This document shows positions 5,522 through 13,814 of a stretch of DNA of 37,586 nucleotides, one piece after another. The notes below the pieces were generated by a model. That model worked only from the letters and a program-made list of their open reading frames with translations, was not told where the DNA came from and did not search any database. How positions within the stretch are numbered: the first letter of the stretch is position 1; each line of letters begins with the position of its first letter. The stretch is from a virus: positions 1-37,586 of IMG/VR virus record IMGVR_UViG_3300035122_000006; one strand, given 5' to 3'. Both the position numbers and the translations under genes were made by a program.

Positions 5522-7542
5522 CTAGGCTTATTTTCCATTTTACTGTATTCAAATTCTTGCTGTCCGCCTACCGTCTCATTACGTTGCAACATATCTATAA
5601 TTCCAAGGGCTTTCTGAACATATTCAAGATCCATACCTTGCAATTCTTTGATTGCCCTCATCTGATCCAGTGCCGCTTGGGACCTGTCTTTCTGACCCTC
5701 TTGTAAACGTTCGTAAGCAAGCATTTGATTCTCTTCCACTCTGGAAGCCCGTTCAATAGCGAGACCCCTATCAGCTTCAGCCTTAGATAAAAGACTCTGC
5801 ATCTGAGCGTCAGTAACTCCCATCTGAATTTGAGACTGTTGCATAGCCATCTGCTGTTGTTGTTGTTCTTCAGCTTGAATTTGTTGGATAAGTTCGTTCT
5901 TTCCTTGTATTTGAGCATCTTCAAGTATAGATGCGGTGGGGATAGGGATACCGATCTCTCGGAAATAAAGTTTTTGCTTAAGTGATAGCTGTTTTTGTGT
6001 CGTTGAGTACGAACCCTCTTGAACTGATACATCGAACTTTCCGAAATAACGATCAAAAAACTGTGAGGATGGCTCTTCATTTATAATTCTCCTAACCTTT
6101 CCTGGGGTTAGATTGTGCTGGAAACCGATCATTAATAGCTTCCCTACCATTTTGATAGAATAGTCTAGCTGATCGAATATCTTTTGAAGAGTCACAAGAC
6201 CCGCGCCTTGTCTAAGCATTGAAAGGATGCCGGCCTTGTCGTCTTCTGCCGTTCCTAAAAGCTCTTCGTTAACCCCTGATATTTGGCTTATCTCATCGCC
6301 TAATATCTTGGATAGCTCGATCATGGATGGTGGTACCTGCGGCGGATCAATACGTTGAATATGAACGCCGGGTTGTTTACCTTTTTTAAGAACTATTTGC
6401 CTACCTTGGGACGTTTGATAGATAGATTCGGGATCTACTAGCGCCCCCTCTTCCATCATCCAGCCTTGGTTGATGGTCGATTCGAGAATATCTAATTCAA
6501 TTACCTTGCGCCGGTTGTATAGATATTGCGAATCCCTAAGGTCTCTCACTACTCCTTGTACGCGCCAAGGAAAATATGGCAACTGAGGTTCGTAATAGCA
6601 CCAAAACGGGACGAATGGATAACAATCCCCAAAATGACCTTTTCCATGATAAAATGTTTTTCCATTCACTAATATGGCTAACTGAACGGTGGGGATAACT
6701 TGGTCGACCACTTCCAATTGAGGGAATGCATTTAGGAATTCTTTCATAGAATTCTCATCACCGGGCCATTCTAGGGAATCACCAGACTGAGTATCCACAA
6801 TCATTTGACCTTTGCGGTATGTACGATAGTAATACTCATCATAGGTTAAAAAATCTGCATAACCGTAATTGTATGTTTCTGGCTGGAAATAGAATTTTCC
6901 GTCACTTGTTCCCCCTTGGCCTTGCATTCTCATGATCTCATCGGCGTATTCTGGCAGTAGGGATGCTATCTCCTTATTGTTCATGTATTTTCTTCGCCAA
7001 ATGTAGTTACAATCCGACAAGTCTTGCTTGCGATAGTAGGGGTCGATGATAAAGTCATTGTATTGCAAAACGTCTATTTGTGGATCGCCATTGATAGGGT
7101 CTTGCCTAAAATCCCACCACAAATGAAGTAATGTTTGTCCTGTTACTACAGATCCCTCGAATGCGTCGCTTATATTCTTATTGACGCTTGCCACACTTTC
7201 GGCCCAAAACGCTAATTTAGTCATCTGATCGCTAGTCTGCTGATCCTCTTGCTCGCGTGGAACATACTCGATACTTTTTTGATGCTGGCGTTGATAGCCA
7301 GTTATCATGTTGACAATGCGCCTAATCCGGTTGAAATTGAAAGACTTTCGACGGAAACTAGGGATATTGCCATATAGATCATTCCATAAAGTTTGATCAC
7401 CAGAATAGAATCTAGTATCTGTATCGGCTTCGGCCCAATACGCTAAATTGAGTGTTATGGCTTCCCGGTAGGTATGCTCTAATTGGTTTTGTAAAGATTT
7501 ATCGCGGTCATCGAAAAGACCGACGGAAGGAAAAAGGGTCAT
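5518..7542 (-). CDS. Portal protein, P22-like
   Basis: A 674-aa protein, the usual length for P22-type portals. It has an N-terminal 'RIRRIVNMITGYQRQH' segment, a central 'RDLRDSQYLYNRRKVIELD' clip region, 'SGVNEELLGTAEDDKAG' and a long Gln/Glu-rich coiled coil (about 560-655) corresponding to the barrel. The portal is the dodecameric ring through which DNA is packaged and ejected. It follows TerL after a 62-bp gap, and its ribosome binding site is AGGGAG. Confidence 0.87.
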   Translation of the reverse strand: MTLFPSVGLFDDRDKSLQNQLEHTYREAITLNLAYWAEADTDTRFYSGDQTLWNDLYGNIPSFRRKSFNFNRIRRIVNMITGYQRQHQKSIEYVPREQEDQQTSDQMTKLAFWAESVASVNKNISDAFEGSVVTGQTLLHLWWDFRQDPINGDPQIDVLQYNDFIIDPYYRKQDLSDCNYIWRRKYMNNKEIASLLPEYADEIMRMQGQGGTSDGKFYFQPETYNYGYADFLTYDEYYYRTYRKGQMIVDTQSGDSLEWPGDENSMKEFLNAFPQLEVVDQVIPTVQLAILVNGKTFYHGKGHFGDCYPFVPFWCYYEPQLPYFPWRVQGVVRDLRDSQYLYNRRKVIELDILESTINQGWMMEEGALVDPESIYQTSQGRQIVLKKGKQPGVHIQRIDPPQVPPSMIELSKILGDEISQISGVNEELLGTAEDDKAGILSMLRQGAGLVTLQKIFDQLDYSIKMVGKLLMIGFQHNLTPGKVRRIINEEPSSQFFDRYFGKFDVSVQEGSYSTTQKQLSLKQKLYFREIGIPIPTASILEDAQIQGKNELIQQIQAEEQQQQQMAMQQSQIQMGVTDAQMQSLLSKAEADRGLAIERASRVEENQMLAYERLQEGQKDRSQAALDQMRAIKELQGMDLEYVQKALGIIDMLQRNETVGGQQEFEYSKMENKPR

Positions 7543-7604: not shown

Positions 7605-9119
7605 CTAGTAATGGGAAGGCGTATTGAAAAAGCTATTTGTCTGAGATATTCCCGCATGTTTCTCCCACAATTTGCGGTCTAGCTCTGCGGCATTTTCGGT
7701 TCCCGTGATAAGAGGAATCGATTGCGATAGATACATAAAAGCATCGGCACCATGTGACGCATCGTCATGCACTTCTTTCTGTGACCAGCGTCCTAGTTTC
7801 TCATTCCATTGTTTCTTATACGTTTCGAGCCGTTTTATTCCTGTAGCACACCTAGTTTCGTCAAACCAGCATCTAGGTATGACCATCCGGGCATTATCCC
7901 ACTGGTCGGCTTTGGCCATTTGATCTATAGCCGTCATTTCAAAGTTATGATTGCGAGCTGTCTCGACTCTTGTTAATCCAGTCGTGTATTCTGTATTTTT
8001 AGCATCAGGAGGAACAAAATGGTCGGTGTAGATGTATGGCTTTTCTTTGAGGAGCTTTATGTAATGGATCATATGCTCGTTATTGCCTTCGATATAGTCT
8101 ATGACGTGAATTTCCTGGTTGATTAGTTGAAATATCCAGATAGCCGTGTAGTCATCATATCCGAGATCCCACGCGGTAAATGTTTTTGATCCTTCCTGAT
8201 AGGGAACATTAGTTATTCTGTTTTCTTTTCTTGCCTGATTCATCTGTCTTATGAAAAAAAATCCCTCTGAAGATTCCTCAAATGCTTCTTCAGGGGTTGA
8301 TGGATATTCGCGCTTCATCGAATCTTGCTGTGTCACGGCTTTCCTAACATACCACCACTTTTGAGGATCTAATAACTGGATACCTATAGCTTCGAGTGAC
8401 TCAAAATAATCGGCGTAATCATTCGGTATTAATGTGCGCCTATCCGTTCGATAATCAGGATGACGCCACCAAGGGAAAAAGTGAAAGCGAAAGTCTAGTT
8501 CTGTCACGTCTTTGTTGAATCTGGATTGTTGGCACATATCATAGAAGTAGCCTTCTTTACCTTCGGCGGTAGACTCGATGAAGATATGCTGTCCAGGCGC
8601 TACGGTATTTAGAGATCCTGAAATAATTTCCGAAGCTTTATCCCGATAATGAGCACAGATATAACCAAACTCGCTAATATGGAGATACTGAAAAGTTTGG
8701 GATCGCAGGGAAGTACCCACCCTAATACTAGAGCCATTTGGAAAAGCAAGTTCGCGCACACTATCACTAGTAGCAGGATATGCGTAGCGAATAAACTCTG
8801 GTAAGTTGTCATAAGCAAACCGTATCTTTTTGAATATTTGTTGGGCATCTTCTTTCGTATGGGCAATGATCCCCGCGGATATATTAGGGGTGAATAGGCA
8901 GGCATCCAGAAATAGGATTGAGATAAATGTGGACATCCCTAATTGCCGGGCCTTCAAAATTATATTCATATTATTCAAATTGGCGCATAGCTCTTTTTGC
9001 GCCCAATTCAAAACAAATGGACATATCTTACCGTTCTTGTCGACTATCTTGTAAAAGTTCTTGAATCGTTCTTCAATTGAACGGAAAATTGGTTTAATTT
9101 TCTGAAGATCTTCGATCAT
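7605..9119 (-). CDS. terL: Terminase large subunit
   Basis: A 504-aa packaging motor. The ATPase domain shows a variant Walker A 'KARQLGMST' (56-64), Walker B with catalytic Glu 'LHISEFG' (146-152) and a coupling motif 'ESTAEG' (182-187). The RNase H-like nuclease domain shows 'AWDLGYDD' (about 320) and 'HDDASHGADAF' (about 461-471). It converts ATP hydrolysis to DNA translocation and cuts the concatemer. Its start overlaps the preceding gene by 26 bp. Headful cutting fits the circular contig. Confidence 0.93.
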   Translation of the reverse strand: MIEDLQKIKPIFRSIEERFKNFYKIVDKNGKICPFVLNWAQKELCANLNNMNIILKARQLGMSTFISILFLDACLFTPNISAGIIAHTKEDAQQIFKKIRFAYDNLPEFIRYAYPATSDSVRELAFPNGSSIRVGTSLRSQTFQYLHISEFGYICAHYRDKASEIISGSLNTVAPGQHIFIESTAEGKEGYFYDMCQQSRFNKDVTELDFRFHFFPWWRHPDYRTDRRTLIPNDYADYFESLEAIGIQLLDPQKWWYVRKAVTQQDSMKREYPSTPEEAFEESSEGFFFIRQMNQARKENRITNVPYQEGSKTFTAWDLGYDDYTAIWIFQLINQEIHVIDYIEGNNEHMIHYIKLLKEKPYIYTDHFVPPDAKNTEYTTGLTRVETARNHNFEMTAIDQMAKADQWDNARMVIPRCWFDETRCATGIKRLETYKKQWNEKLGRWSQKEVHDDASHGADAFMYLSQSIPLITGTENAAELDRKLWEKHAGISQTNSFFNTPSHY

Positions 9120-9696
9120 GTTTCTTTGCTAATTTTGTCAGCCAATCTTGATACAAATAGGGAGTTAAATACATATTTTCATACAGTATAGTCGTTAGTC
9201 TCCCATTTTCAAATCCATTTGAGATTAAACGAACAAATGAGGGGGGATCAATATCAAGATCGTCACCTTTTTCCATGATGAGGTTTTGAATTCTTATCAT
9301 CTCTTGGCGCATCTCCGCTTTCTCTCTTTGGCTCTCCTCCCATATGCGTTTTTGATCGTCCCTTTCCTTTTTTATCCTTAAAAATTCCTCATCTTCATAA
9401 TGAGATACCGGCATACCATACAGACACGATCTAAGATACTTTGACCTATCCGGATGACGCATTTTCCTTTCTGCTTTTGCTAGAATCTGTCGGAATCTTT
9501 CGCGTGAAACGTTTAATAATTTTCCCGCGGCTTGATAAGTCATTTTGTTGAAATAATAGAGTCTAACGGCCTGTGCTTCTCTATCGGTAAGGGTTTCCAA
9601 AACTTTGTCTATGGCTTCATGGATTAGGGACAATTCTGCCTTATAACGGGGATCATCAATTTCATATTCTATCATTTGAATAGCTTGCTGGATCAT
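9094..9696 (-). CDS. Sigma-70 region-4-like DNA-binding protein
   Basis: A 200-aa protein. Residues about 35-95 ('LTDREAQAVRLYYF', 'TYQAAGKLLNVSRERFRQIL', 'RKMRHPDRSKYLRS') match the helix-turn-helix of RpoD region 4.2 closely, including the RERxRQI recognition helix and the RHP ending. Regions 1-3 are absent. The C-terminal half is a charged helix and an unrelated tail. It sits between TerS and TerL with overlaps on both sides. It may steer host RNA polymerase to late promoters, or act as a DNA-recognition subunit in packaging. Confidence 0.75.
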   Translation of the reverse strand: MIQQAIQMIEYEIDDPRYKAELSLIHEAIDKVLETLTDREAQAVRLYYFNKMTYQAAGKLLNVSRERFRQILAKAERKMRHPDRSKYLRSCLYGMPVSHYEDEEFLRIKKERDDQKRIWEESQREKAEMRQEMIRIQNLIMEKGDDLDIDPPSFVRLISNGFENGRLTTILYENMYLTPYLYQDWLTKLAKKHDRRSSEN

Positions 9697-10189: not shown

Positions 10190-10786
10190 ATGATGAAAGT
10201 AAAAGTAAAAATTGAAGGCATTAAGCCCCTAGTTTTTCACAAGTTTAACATTGAATCTATCACAGCTCTATCCAAGCCTAAATCGGGAAATAGCGGGAAC
10301 AATCCAGAAGAATGGAAAAATTCATTTTTTCATGATGATGAGAAGTTGTATATCCCTGATAATTATATATTTGCATGTTTGAAAAATGCCGCTGTTCATA
10401 CGAAAGTAGGGCGTGGATCTATTCAAAAAACTTGGATATCAGCGGTGAATGTATTAACAGAAAAAGCTTTCTTGAATCGAGAAATTTTTGCAGATTGGGA
10501 AAACGCTACGGAAGCTGACATACCGACTTCTTCTTCATTACCCGTTTACATAGATATTCGGATGGTAGCAAATCCCAATACTAAAGGTAAAAACGTTCGG
10601 TATCGGGTTGCTTGTTCACCCGGTTGGGAAACTGAATTCGAGCTTTTAATTGATGATAGTTTGATATCTCAACAACATGTCAAAAAAGTCATTGAAGATG
10701 CGGGAAAGCTTCAAGGTATTGCTGAGCTTCGCACTCTGGGATATGGACGTTTCATCGTTAATGAAATGACTTTTGAAAAGGAATAA
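10190..10786 (+). CDS. Unknown early protein with C-terminal GYGRF motif
   Basis: A 198-aa protein, first gene of the plus-strand accessory operon, with a strong AAAGGAG site. It has N-terminal 'KVKVKIEGIKPLVFHKFN', a middle rich in Asn/Ser, and C-terminal 'GIAELRTLGYGRFIV'. A beta-alpha start plus a Gly-rich G-x-G-R-F near the end is loosely like RAMP/Cas-type ferredoxin folds, but I cannot establish homology. Its promoter-proximal position suggests an early takeover or counter-defence role (inference). Confidence 0.7.
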   Translation: MMKVKVKIEGIKPLVFHKFNIESITALSKPKSGNSGNNPEEWKNSFFHDDEKLYIPDNYIFACLKNAAVHTKVGRGSIQKTWISAVNVLTEKAFLNREIFADWENATEADIPTSSSLPVYIDIRMVANPNTKGKNVRYRVACSPGWETEFELLIDDSLISQQHVKKVIEDAGKLQGIAELRTLGYGRFIVNEMTFEKE

Positions 10787-11007
10787 AATTTATATAAAAG
10801 TAATGAAAGGGATAGGAATGGAAAGGAATGGAGCGGATTGGAACGGAATGGACTGGAAAGGAGCGGATAGGAACGGAATGGAAAGGAGTGGAATGGATAG
10901 GATAAGACTGGAATGGATAGGAGTGGAAGGGAGTGGAATGGAACGGATTGGAGAGGAAGGGACAGGAAGGGGATGGAAGGGAAAGGATTGGAACGGAATG
11001 GTTTTTA

Positions 11008-11045
11008 TGGCGGAATGGTTAGTGGGTTCGACTCCCGCATCGCCA
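11008..11045 (+). ncRNA. tRNA-like minihelix, unit 1
   Basis: A T-arm (GTGGG, loop TTCGACT, CCCGC) is followed by ATCGCCA, whose last six bases pair with TGGCGG at 11008-11013 (one G-U). The loop has canonical T54-T55-C56-G57-A58-Y60. Only an 8-base linker, resembling a D-loop (AATGGTTA), replaces the D and anticodon arms. A T-run follows, so it may also act as a terminator. No CCA is encoded. Confidence 0.55.
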
Positions 11046-11146
11046 ATTTTTAATGAAATGGAGCGGAATGGATTGGAATGGACTGGAACGGAAGGGAGAG
11101 GAGTGGAGTGGAAGGGAAAGGAATGGACAGGATTGGAATGGTTTTA

Positions 11147-11184
11147 TGGTGACAAGGTTAGTGGGTTCGACTCCCGCATCGCCT
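11147..11184 (+). ncRNA. tRNA-like minihelix, unit 2
   Basis: Same T-arm as unit 1 (GTGGG-TTCGACT-CCCGC). The outer stem is GGTGA with TCGCC (one G-U), and the terminal pair of units 1 and 3 is lost (T opposite T). Downstream is TATTTTT. Confidence 0.55.
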
Positions 11185-11300
11185 ATTTTTAATGGATCGG
11201 AGTGGAACGGAGTGGAAGGGAAGGGAAGGGAGTGGATCGGAACGGAAGGGAGAGGAGTGGAGTGGAAGGGAAAGGAATGGACAGGATTGGAATGGTTTTA

Positions 11301-11338
11301 TGGTGACATGGTTAGCGGGTTTGACTCCCGCATCGCCA
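11301..11338 (+). ncRNA. tRNA-like minihelix, unit 3
   Basis: The outer stem TGGTGA/TCGCCA is intact. The T-stem has changed from GTGGG/CCCGC to GCGGG/CCCGC, converting a G-U into a C-G pair. The loop is TTTGACT. A run of seven T follows at 11341-11346 and just before, consistent with an intrinsic terminator ending the array. Confidence 0.55.
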
Positions 11339-11373: not shown

Positions 11374-11664
11374 ATGATAGAATACTTAGTAATAAATAAT
11401 AAATATTCTGATAGTTCCGGTACCGCTTTCGGTAATGGAGGGGCGTCTAATAATTTGGCTTGTACTGGCACTGGTATTGACTATGGTGCTGGAAATGGTA
11501 TTGGCTATGGTTCTGGCCATGCGTCGGGCGATGCGTCAAGCTATGGGTCTGGTTATGGGTCTTGCTCTTATTATAGCTATGAAAATGGCTCTGGGTGTGG
11601 CGATGGATTTGAATGTGGATATGGGTATGGCGATGATGATGGGATCGGGTTTGGATATATATAA
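11374..11664 (+). CDS. Gly/Tyr-repeat protein 1
   Basis: A 96-aa protein. After about 35 residues it becomes a Gly-alternating repeat ('GYGSGHASGDASSYGSGYGS', ending 'GDDDGIGFGYI'). A second frame is also open here but would give an implausible Met/Leu/Ala string. I favour the Gly/Tyr frame because a second gene at 13551 encodes the same style of repeat from a 6-bp DNA repeat. No signal peptide. The ribosome binding site is weak. Function unknown; low-complexity aromatic/Gly proteins can self-associate. Confidence 0.5.
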   Translation: MIEYLVINNKYSDSSGTAFGNGGASNNLACTGTGIDYGAGNGIGYGSGHASGDASSYGSGYGSCSYYSYENGSGCGDGFECGYGYGDDDGIGFGYI

Positions 11665-13224: not shown

Positions 13225-13563
13225 ATGAATGAAATTATAGAAATTAACGGTGAAAAATATCAAAAATTATCCACCGAAAATAAGCAGTACGTCATGTGCA
13301 GGACATACTCCGCGGGAGTATTTGCGGGATATCTTGAGCGCAGAGAGGGTAAAGAAGTAACGTTAAAAAATGCTAGGCGTATTTGGCGCTGGGCAGGGGC
13401 CGCATCTCTTTCTCAGCTAGCGCAATCAGGAACATCAAAACCAGAGGAGTGCAAATTTCCCGAAGAAGTTGATGAAGTTTTGTTAACTGAAGCAATTGAG
13501 ATTATACCGATAACTGAAAAAGCTAAAAAAACAATCGACTCTGTTCCGATATGGAAAGCTTAA
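13225..13563 (+). CDS. Conserved phage protein (DUF6948-like)
   Basis: A 112-aa protein from the ATG at 13225, eight bases after AAAGGAG. The stretch 'YVMCRTYSAGVFAGYLERRE' and 'LKNARRIWRWAGAASLSQLA' is characteristic of a small phage family that I recall as DUF6948, followed by 'EVLLTEAIEI'. The family has no known function. It appears in accessory regions of many phages. Its 3' end overlaps the next gene by 13 bp. Confidence 0.75.
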   Translation: MNEIIEINGEKYQKLSTENKQYVMCRTYSAGVFAGYLERREGKEVTLKNARRIWRWAGAASLSQLAQSGTSKPEECKFPEEVDEVLLTEAIEIIPITEKAKKTIDSVPIWKA

Positions 13564-13814
13564 ATTTTGACGCGGTCAACGGCTACGGCTACGGATGCGT
13601 CAATGGCTGCGGCAATGGCTACGGAGAGGGCTATGGCTATGGCGATGAATATAGCGATGTCTACGGCTATGGCTACGGCAATGGCTACGGAGATGGTTTC
13701 GGCTATGGCGATGGTTACGGAGTAGGCGATTTATACGGCGAGGGATATGGCGGGGGCTATGGCTATGGCAATGGCGAGGGATATGGCTACGAATATGGAT
13801 ACGGCGATGGATAA
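13551..13814 (+). CDS. Gly/Tyr-repeat protein 2
   Basis: An 87-aa protein made almost wholly of G-Y-G-x units with Asp, Glu and Asn in the variable places ('GYGEGYGYGDEYSDVYGYGY'). The DNA is a 6-bp repeat (GGCTAY / GGCGAT), prone to slippage, so length should vary between relatives. No ribosome binding site of its own; it overlaps the previous gene and may be coupled. Unknown function. Self-association or structural/adhesive roles are guesses. Confidence 0.55.
   Translation: MESLNFDAVNGYGYGCVNGCGNGYGEGYGYGDEYSDVYGYGYGNGYGDGFGYGDGYGVGDLYGEGYGGGYGYGNGEGYGYEYGYGDG

Follow-up and report, generated by a model that had tools for sequence, protein, structure and literature searches.

tRNA-elbow minihelices beside the candidate guide tracts of a VIPR locus and in the gene gaps of other phages

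What kind of locus carries a small tRNA-like element at the end of each of its pentamer tracts, and what might these elements do there? We analysed a 37,586-base virus record (the whole stretch of DNA, hereafter the window) that encodes a P22-like portal protein and a large terminase. The original prediction, made from the letters of the window, had recognised tRNA-like minihelices, and this part stood. Its suggestions of terminators or captured tRNA 3' ends were not supported as the general role, and it had missed both the GGANN/VIPR context and the punctuation of operons. The relevant features are:

10190..10786, + strand: Vipr-like protein gene, 198 aa, PHROG 4652, predicted Cas7/Csm3 RAMP fold
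10810..10999, + strand: candidate guide tract 1, 38 pentamers, GGANN, with two deviations (AGACT, GGGAT)
11008..11045, + strand: tRNA-elbow minihelix 1, then ATTTTT; covariance model E 0.0011
11060..11139, + strand: candidate guide tract 2, 16 GGANN pentamers
11147..11184, + strand: tRNA-elbow minihelix 2, outermost pair lost, then ATTTTT; T-arm-only model match
11194..11293, + strand: candidate guide tract 3, 20 GGANN pentamers
11301..11338, + strand: tRNA-elbow minihelix 3, T-loop TTTGACT, then ATTTTTTT

The Vipr-like gene and its pentamer tracts

The product of 10190-10786 matched phrog_4652 with an E value of 2.6e-15. Its AlphaFold model (mean pLDDT 86) resembles Csm3/Cas7 chains, with a Foldseek E value of 1.2e-8 and a VIA Z of 12.1 at an rmsd of 4.8 over 160 residues. 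PDB entry 36pp chain D ('SUSP1 Vipr protein') was matched by the family profile at E 7.4e-34 and by the window protein alone at E 1.3e-4. The product is a single-domain RAMP homologous to SUSP1 Vipr. According to the main text of the preprint, VIPR (Viral Interference Programmable Repeat) comprises the Vipr protein and vrRNAs with 9–16 YNNGG repeats and a structured 3' tail, and the guides read double-stranded DNA through the NN positions with a one-base skip (PMC13142463). In the same text, guide function and the target rule are demonstrated for GGY systems, and 'a related consensus' is allowed besides GGY (PMC13142463). Based on the match to 36pp and this description of a Vipr protein with pentamer guides, we classify the window locus, from its sequence, as a VIPR system with a GGA consensus. 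The association of gene and array is already known as VIPR and is not new here.

The window resembles VIPR in its phage-borne, Cas7-like RAMP of about 200 aa and in its adjacent tandem pentamer tracts, which combine a fixed triplet with a hypervariable NN (38, 16, and 20 units) and are followed by a structured element. It differs from the systems described in the preprint's main text in its consensus (GGA versus GGY), in the length of tract 1 (38 units, against 9–16 there), and in its separators, tRNA-elbow minihelices, of which that text says nothing. The word tRNA never occurs in the main text (PMC13142463); its supplement may mention minihelices.

Viral contigs were scanned for GGANN runs, and the matches listed fell into two kinds: repeats of low diversity, and loci whose NN is diverse. 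Among the matches listed of this second kind, nearly all carry a homologue of window 10190-10786; L089 is an exception. Searching by protein instead of pattern gave 53 loci, in 35 of which a strict detector found pentamer arrays. A period-5 signal (statistic ≥2.3; tract 1 of the window reaches 3.0 of 3) occurred in the flanks of 63 of 68 Vipr-like genes at non-redundant loci, compared to 0/68 shuffles and 4/53 distant control regions. This set of 68 consists of 17 loci found by the GGANN pattern itself, the window, and 50 found by protein alone; the signal was present in 45 of these 50. The fixed triplet varies between phages (GGA, GGC, GGT, GTT, GTC, GCA). In the pooled GGA loci all 16 dinucleotides are used at the NN positions, and the likeness of neighbouring NN units is 0.074 versus 0.077 after permutation, indicating that the tracts are not slippage microsatellites. 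A microsatellite reading was rejected on this lack of a tandem-duplication signal in NN and because low-diversity repeats make up most of the pattern loci that lack the gene. Given the VIPR preprint and the Cas7 fold, TRAP-like and CsrA-decoy readings of GGANN were dropped.

Conserved separators divide the arrays of ten Felix O1-like phages into segments; of 36 distinct ones, 34 were exact multiples of five, 45–80 nt long. Close relatives in this group (L128, L186–L194) share the separators but differ in the pentamer segments between them, and near-identical segments occur at different positions, downstream in L194 and upstream in L128. These patterns suggest cassette-like turnover. For the window tracts, exact matching of three 10-unit patterns to viral contigs under the 1-nt-skip rule returned no target. 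No self-target was found either; self-matches of the window were no better under the 1-nt-skip rule than under other rules. One Felix-type array segment was compared to E. coli genomes by ordinary BLAST, which is blind to gapped targets, and gave no match.

Several further observations concern the gene and its surroundings. Within the window, a sigma-70 region 4 protein is encoded at 9094-9696, between the small and large terminase genes. Two small ORFs, at 11374-11664 (directly 3' of the third minihelix) and 13551-13814, are rich in GY/GD-type short repeats. In the window, no gene next to the Vipr-like gene was recognised as HNH or PHROG 5926-type, and several downstream ORFs are without an assigned family. 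In 20 other loci, including L145, L148, L156, L161, L169–L172, and L177–L183, an HNH-endonuclease-like gene lies just 3' of the Vipr-like gene and probably encodes a nuclease of the vap accessory kind known from VIPR. Vipr-like genes also occur in several Methylobacterium genomes (L206, L208, L211, L215, L217, L222), most with nearby GGC tracts, and a Diapherotrites archaeon bin (L221) has a partial Vipr-like match and a GGC tract.

Structure and covariation of the minihelices

The three predicted 38-nt units of acceptor stem plus T-arm, with a D-loop-like linker, were recovered at 11008-11045, 11147-11184, and 11301-11338, and the RNAfold minimum-energy structure of each equals the proposed shape. 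Every unit consists of a six-position acceptor-like stem, an 8-nt linker (AATGGTTA, CAAGGTTA, and CATGGTTA; pattern xxxGGTTA), a 5-bp T-stem with the T-loop TTCGACT or TTTGACT, an unpaired A, and the 3' acceptor strand. A D-loop without a D-stem is likewise a feature of the tRNA-like domain of tmRNA. Each unit closes one GGANN tract, to which it is joined by GG-T4/5-A. Neither ARAGORN nor Rfam recognised a tRNA in the window, and the D-stem and anticodon arm are absent, so that a full cloverleaf is lacking. The acceptor stem is not followed by a 3' CCA, and the letters CCA of units 1 and 3 take part in base pairs. Rfam gave nothing relevant at either gathering or permissive thresholds, an exact search of viral contigs with the window T-arm gave no match, and neither did BLAST of the region against phages.

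Taken alone, the window makes a case for the minihelices that is only suggestive; it becomes strong only with the relatives. The folding energies of the three units are ordinary compared to shuffles (z = −0.49, −0.45, and −1.26). Pairing-preserving changes among them are one-sided and none is compensatory, the outermost position of unit 2 is an unpaired T opposite T, and units 2 and 3 lie inside a duplicated block. Tracts 2 and 3 share their last 11 pentamers exactly.

An architecture finder (acceptor stem, GG-containing linker, T-arm) gave 32 matches in all fetched loci, 30 of them on the gene strand, and one match in 1.7 Mb of reversed sequence. A covariance model was trained on 16 actinobacterial copies, leaving out the window sequence. 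Its best match in the window was unit 1 (25.2 bits, E 0.0011); the T-arm of unit 2 was matched weakly (E 0.6), unit 3 was missed at E ≤1, and the relative L141 was matched at E 6.7e-6. In 0.91 Mb of unrelated viral loci, the background of this model amounted to one match below E 0.05. Other loci, mostly VIPR, likewise gave one match below that threshold in 0.62 Mb, indicating that most VIPR loci are without this form of minihelix.

The covariance-model search over related phages that had been proposed as a check gave, across 14 sources, 35 matches in 11 phage or prophage records, all 35 on the + (gene) strand. Among them are 34 distinct, covarying sequences, which speaks against captured tRNA 3' ends as the general explanation. 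In the alignment of the 35 matches 95.7% of cells pair, and the covariation score of 0.831 compares to 0.165±0.024 in shuffles and was reached in 0/500 of them; doubly changed cells numbered 118 versus 34.5±4.5. Slid structures scored 0.07–0.17. This alignment was fitted to the model and hence leans towards the structure; the ungapped, window-free training alignment gave a covariation of 0.715 versus 0.132. The claim that pairing is kept while sequence varies was borne out in the relatives, where both sides change in 10 of 11 pairs and pairing is retained, the opposite of the random stem drift that the original prediction named as its refutation. In the window, pairing is kept through one-sided changes only, and unit 2 loses its outermost pair. 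The linker GG and the T-loop TTYRA are kept across copies, and most have an unpaired position between T-stem and acceptor stem. Rfam recognises none of the copies, and the sole ARAGORN call on the minihelix loci was an odd tRNA in Trine overlapping a minihelix. Judged by this sequence comparison, the minihelices form a genuine RNA class whose stems covary.

As predicted, each window unit ends in a T-run, with ATTTTT or longer after all three; ATTTTA follows one unit in L141. The units might accordingly be tRNA-shaped intrinsic terminators, each guide RNA being its own transcription unit that ends in the T-run. Four T's within 12 nt downstream were found after just 5 of 37 copies, which does not support termination as the general role, and the T-loop and GG linker are kept though a terminator has no need of them. 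A terminator scan did not flag the units, a weak argument since its rule relies on short loops and adjacent T's. We regard this explanation as improbable; in the window, where T-runs follow the units, termination may add to cutting or take its place.

Placement of minihelices in VIPR loci and gene gaps

Minihelices lie beside or alternate with guide tracts in eight VIPR loci. An alternation of minihelix, tract, and minihelix was found in LittleE, Trine, MakoManhole, and Piscicoccus; a single copy adjoins the tract in Planomonospora and prophiBWHA-1, and two copies do so in L141. The minihelix is not required for VIPR, since L124, whose protein is the closest (79% identical), has tracts and no minihelix, and most VIPR loci have other separators. 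Directly after a GGANN tract, L038 carries a tRNA-like gene (6887-6956; ARAGORN, odd anticodon), that is, a fuller tRNA in the minihelix position. Mycobacterium phage Dove has a lone GGCNN tract (L201:1606-1670) in the gap where LittleE has a whole VIPR cassette. The VIPR cassette of MakoManhole (L196:1641-3145) is a clean insertion relative to AnarQue (L202), with the same minihelix at both ends.

Outside VIPR, we counted placements in about 5 kb from each of three actinophages, Mycobacterium phage Oaker, Streptomyces phage Kaine, and Gordonia phage Cafasso. Minihelices were present in 16 of 18 intergenic gaps of at least 80 nt and absent from all shorter ones; 15 of the 16 end 31–50 nt before the next start codon. 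The detector found no pentamer tracts in these minihelix-bearing stretches.

This distribution bears on two further explanations. The minihelix could be the retained 3' tail, or handle, of the guide RNA, which would cap or protect its 3' end and might bind Vipr like the SUSP1 tail, with no cut on the 5' side. Such a tail would fit the vrRNAs of the preprint's main text, in which a tract is followed by an invariant structured 3' tail (PMC13142463), and every window tract is directly followed by GG-T4/5-A and a minihelix. However, the minihelix also stands 5' of the first tract in Trine, MakoManhole, and Piscicoccus, the same element occupies gene gaps away from any tract, and a short GGGATAG-like stretch, shared by several actinobacterial loci and lying between the end of the tract and the minihelix, could be the tail instead. 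We consider the handle unlikely, though a better candidate than termination. Alternatively, the units might be free tRNA mimics, decoys for aminoacyl-tRNA synthetases or for tRNA-modifying or -cleaving enzymes such as anticodon nucleases, placed in array or operon solely for expression. The conservation of elbow and acceptor features while helix sequences vary would suit a decoy. Yet there is no anticodon arm, the freely varying acceptor stem sequence implies no fixed synthetase identity, and the regular spacing to the next start codon points to a role in cis; we judge decoys very unlikely, the least probable of these explanations.

Candidate processing by tRNA-maturation enzymes

The reading we favour, and consider fairly probable, is a VIPR locus punctuated by tRNA-like minihelices that would be cut by host tRNA-maturation enzymes, freeing guides or mRNAs. 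A Cas7-like Vipr protein is encoded ahead of three GGANN tracts, in which the NN dinucleotides would determine a gapped DNA target. Each tract is followed by a minihelix made up of an acceptor stem, a D-loop that keeps the conserved GG but has no D-stem, and a T-arm. RNase P would recognise its 5' side and possibly a tRNA 3' nuclease the other, so that a transcript of the locus would be cut into single guide RNAs and, in other phages, into single mRNAs. The minihelix might then cap the upstream RNA at its 3' end or the downstream RNA at its 5' end, or be excised, alternatives between which sequence cannot tell. Recognition by tRNA-maturation enzymes is suggested by the elbow nucleotides, the stacked acceptor/T-arm helix, the strand, and the placement; RNase P is the leading functional idea, and both the stacked helix and the T-loop of its substrates are indicated here by structure and covariation. 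The absent 3' CCA is a weakness of the cutting reading, and the position left unpaired between T-stem and acceptor stem in most copies also counts against it.

RNase P processes non-tRNA substrates, among them phage C4 antisense RNA, M3 RNA, pre-tmRNA, and mRNAs (PMC11143913). In the phage T4 Pro-Ser precursor neither tRNA encodes the CCA, which RNase P prefers there (PMC11143913). The minihelices would be like these substrates and the tRNA-like domain of tmRNA in offering an acceptor/T-arm stack for recognition without a full tRNA, and unlike them in lacking a CCA end and occurring in many copies per genome; the searches made revealed no homology to them. Hammerhead-ribozyme-interspersed VIPR arrays are reported in the preprint's main text (PMC13142463). 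As in those arrays, a self-contained RNA element lies between guide tracts and would separate guides by cutting; unlike the ribozyme, the window element is tRNA-like, has no Rfam match, and would need host enzymes. Another analogy is mitochondrial tRNA punctuation, in which tRNA-shaped elements between genes on the coding strand mark cutting sites. The minihelix differs in having only the acceptor/T-arm half and a D-loop, without an anticodon arm, in belonging to phages, and in that its cutting is putative.

From their placement, the intergenic minihelices of unrelated phages probably mark cut sites in long transcripts. The broader proposal, which we hold to be evenly balanced, is a new class of 38–44-nt tRNA-elbow RNAs in phages of several bacterial groups, by which polycistronic transcripts would be cut gene by gene through host tRNA-maturation enzymes, and which some VIPR systems would have adopted for guide release. 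Guide release from VIPR arrays is so far accounted for mainly in SUSP1-like and hammerhead arrays, and the engineered guide arrays of genome editing, in which tRNAs serve as spacers, would have a natural counterpart in a tRNA-like separator. If true, a covarying tRNA-elbow element that occupies most of the larger intergenic gaps in some phages would represent a general way to process phage mRNAs.
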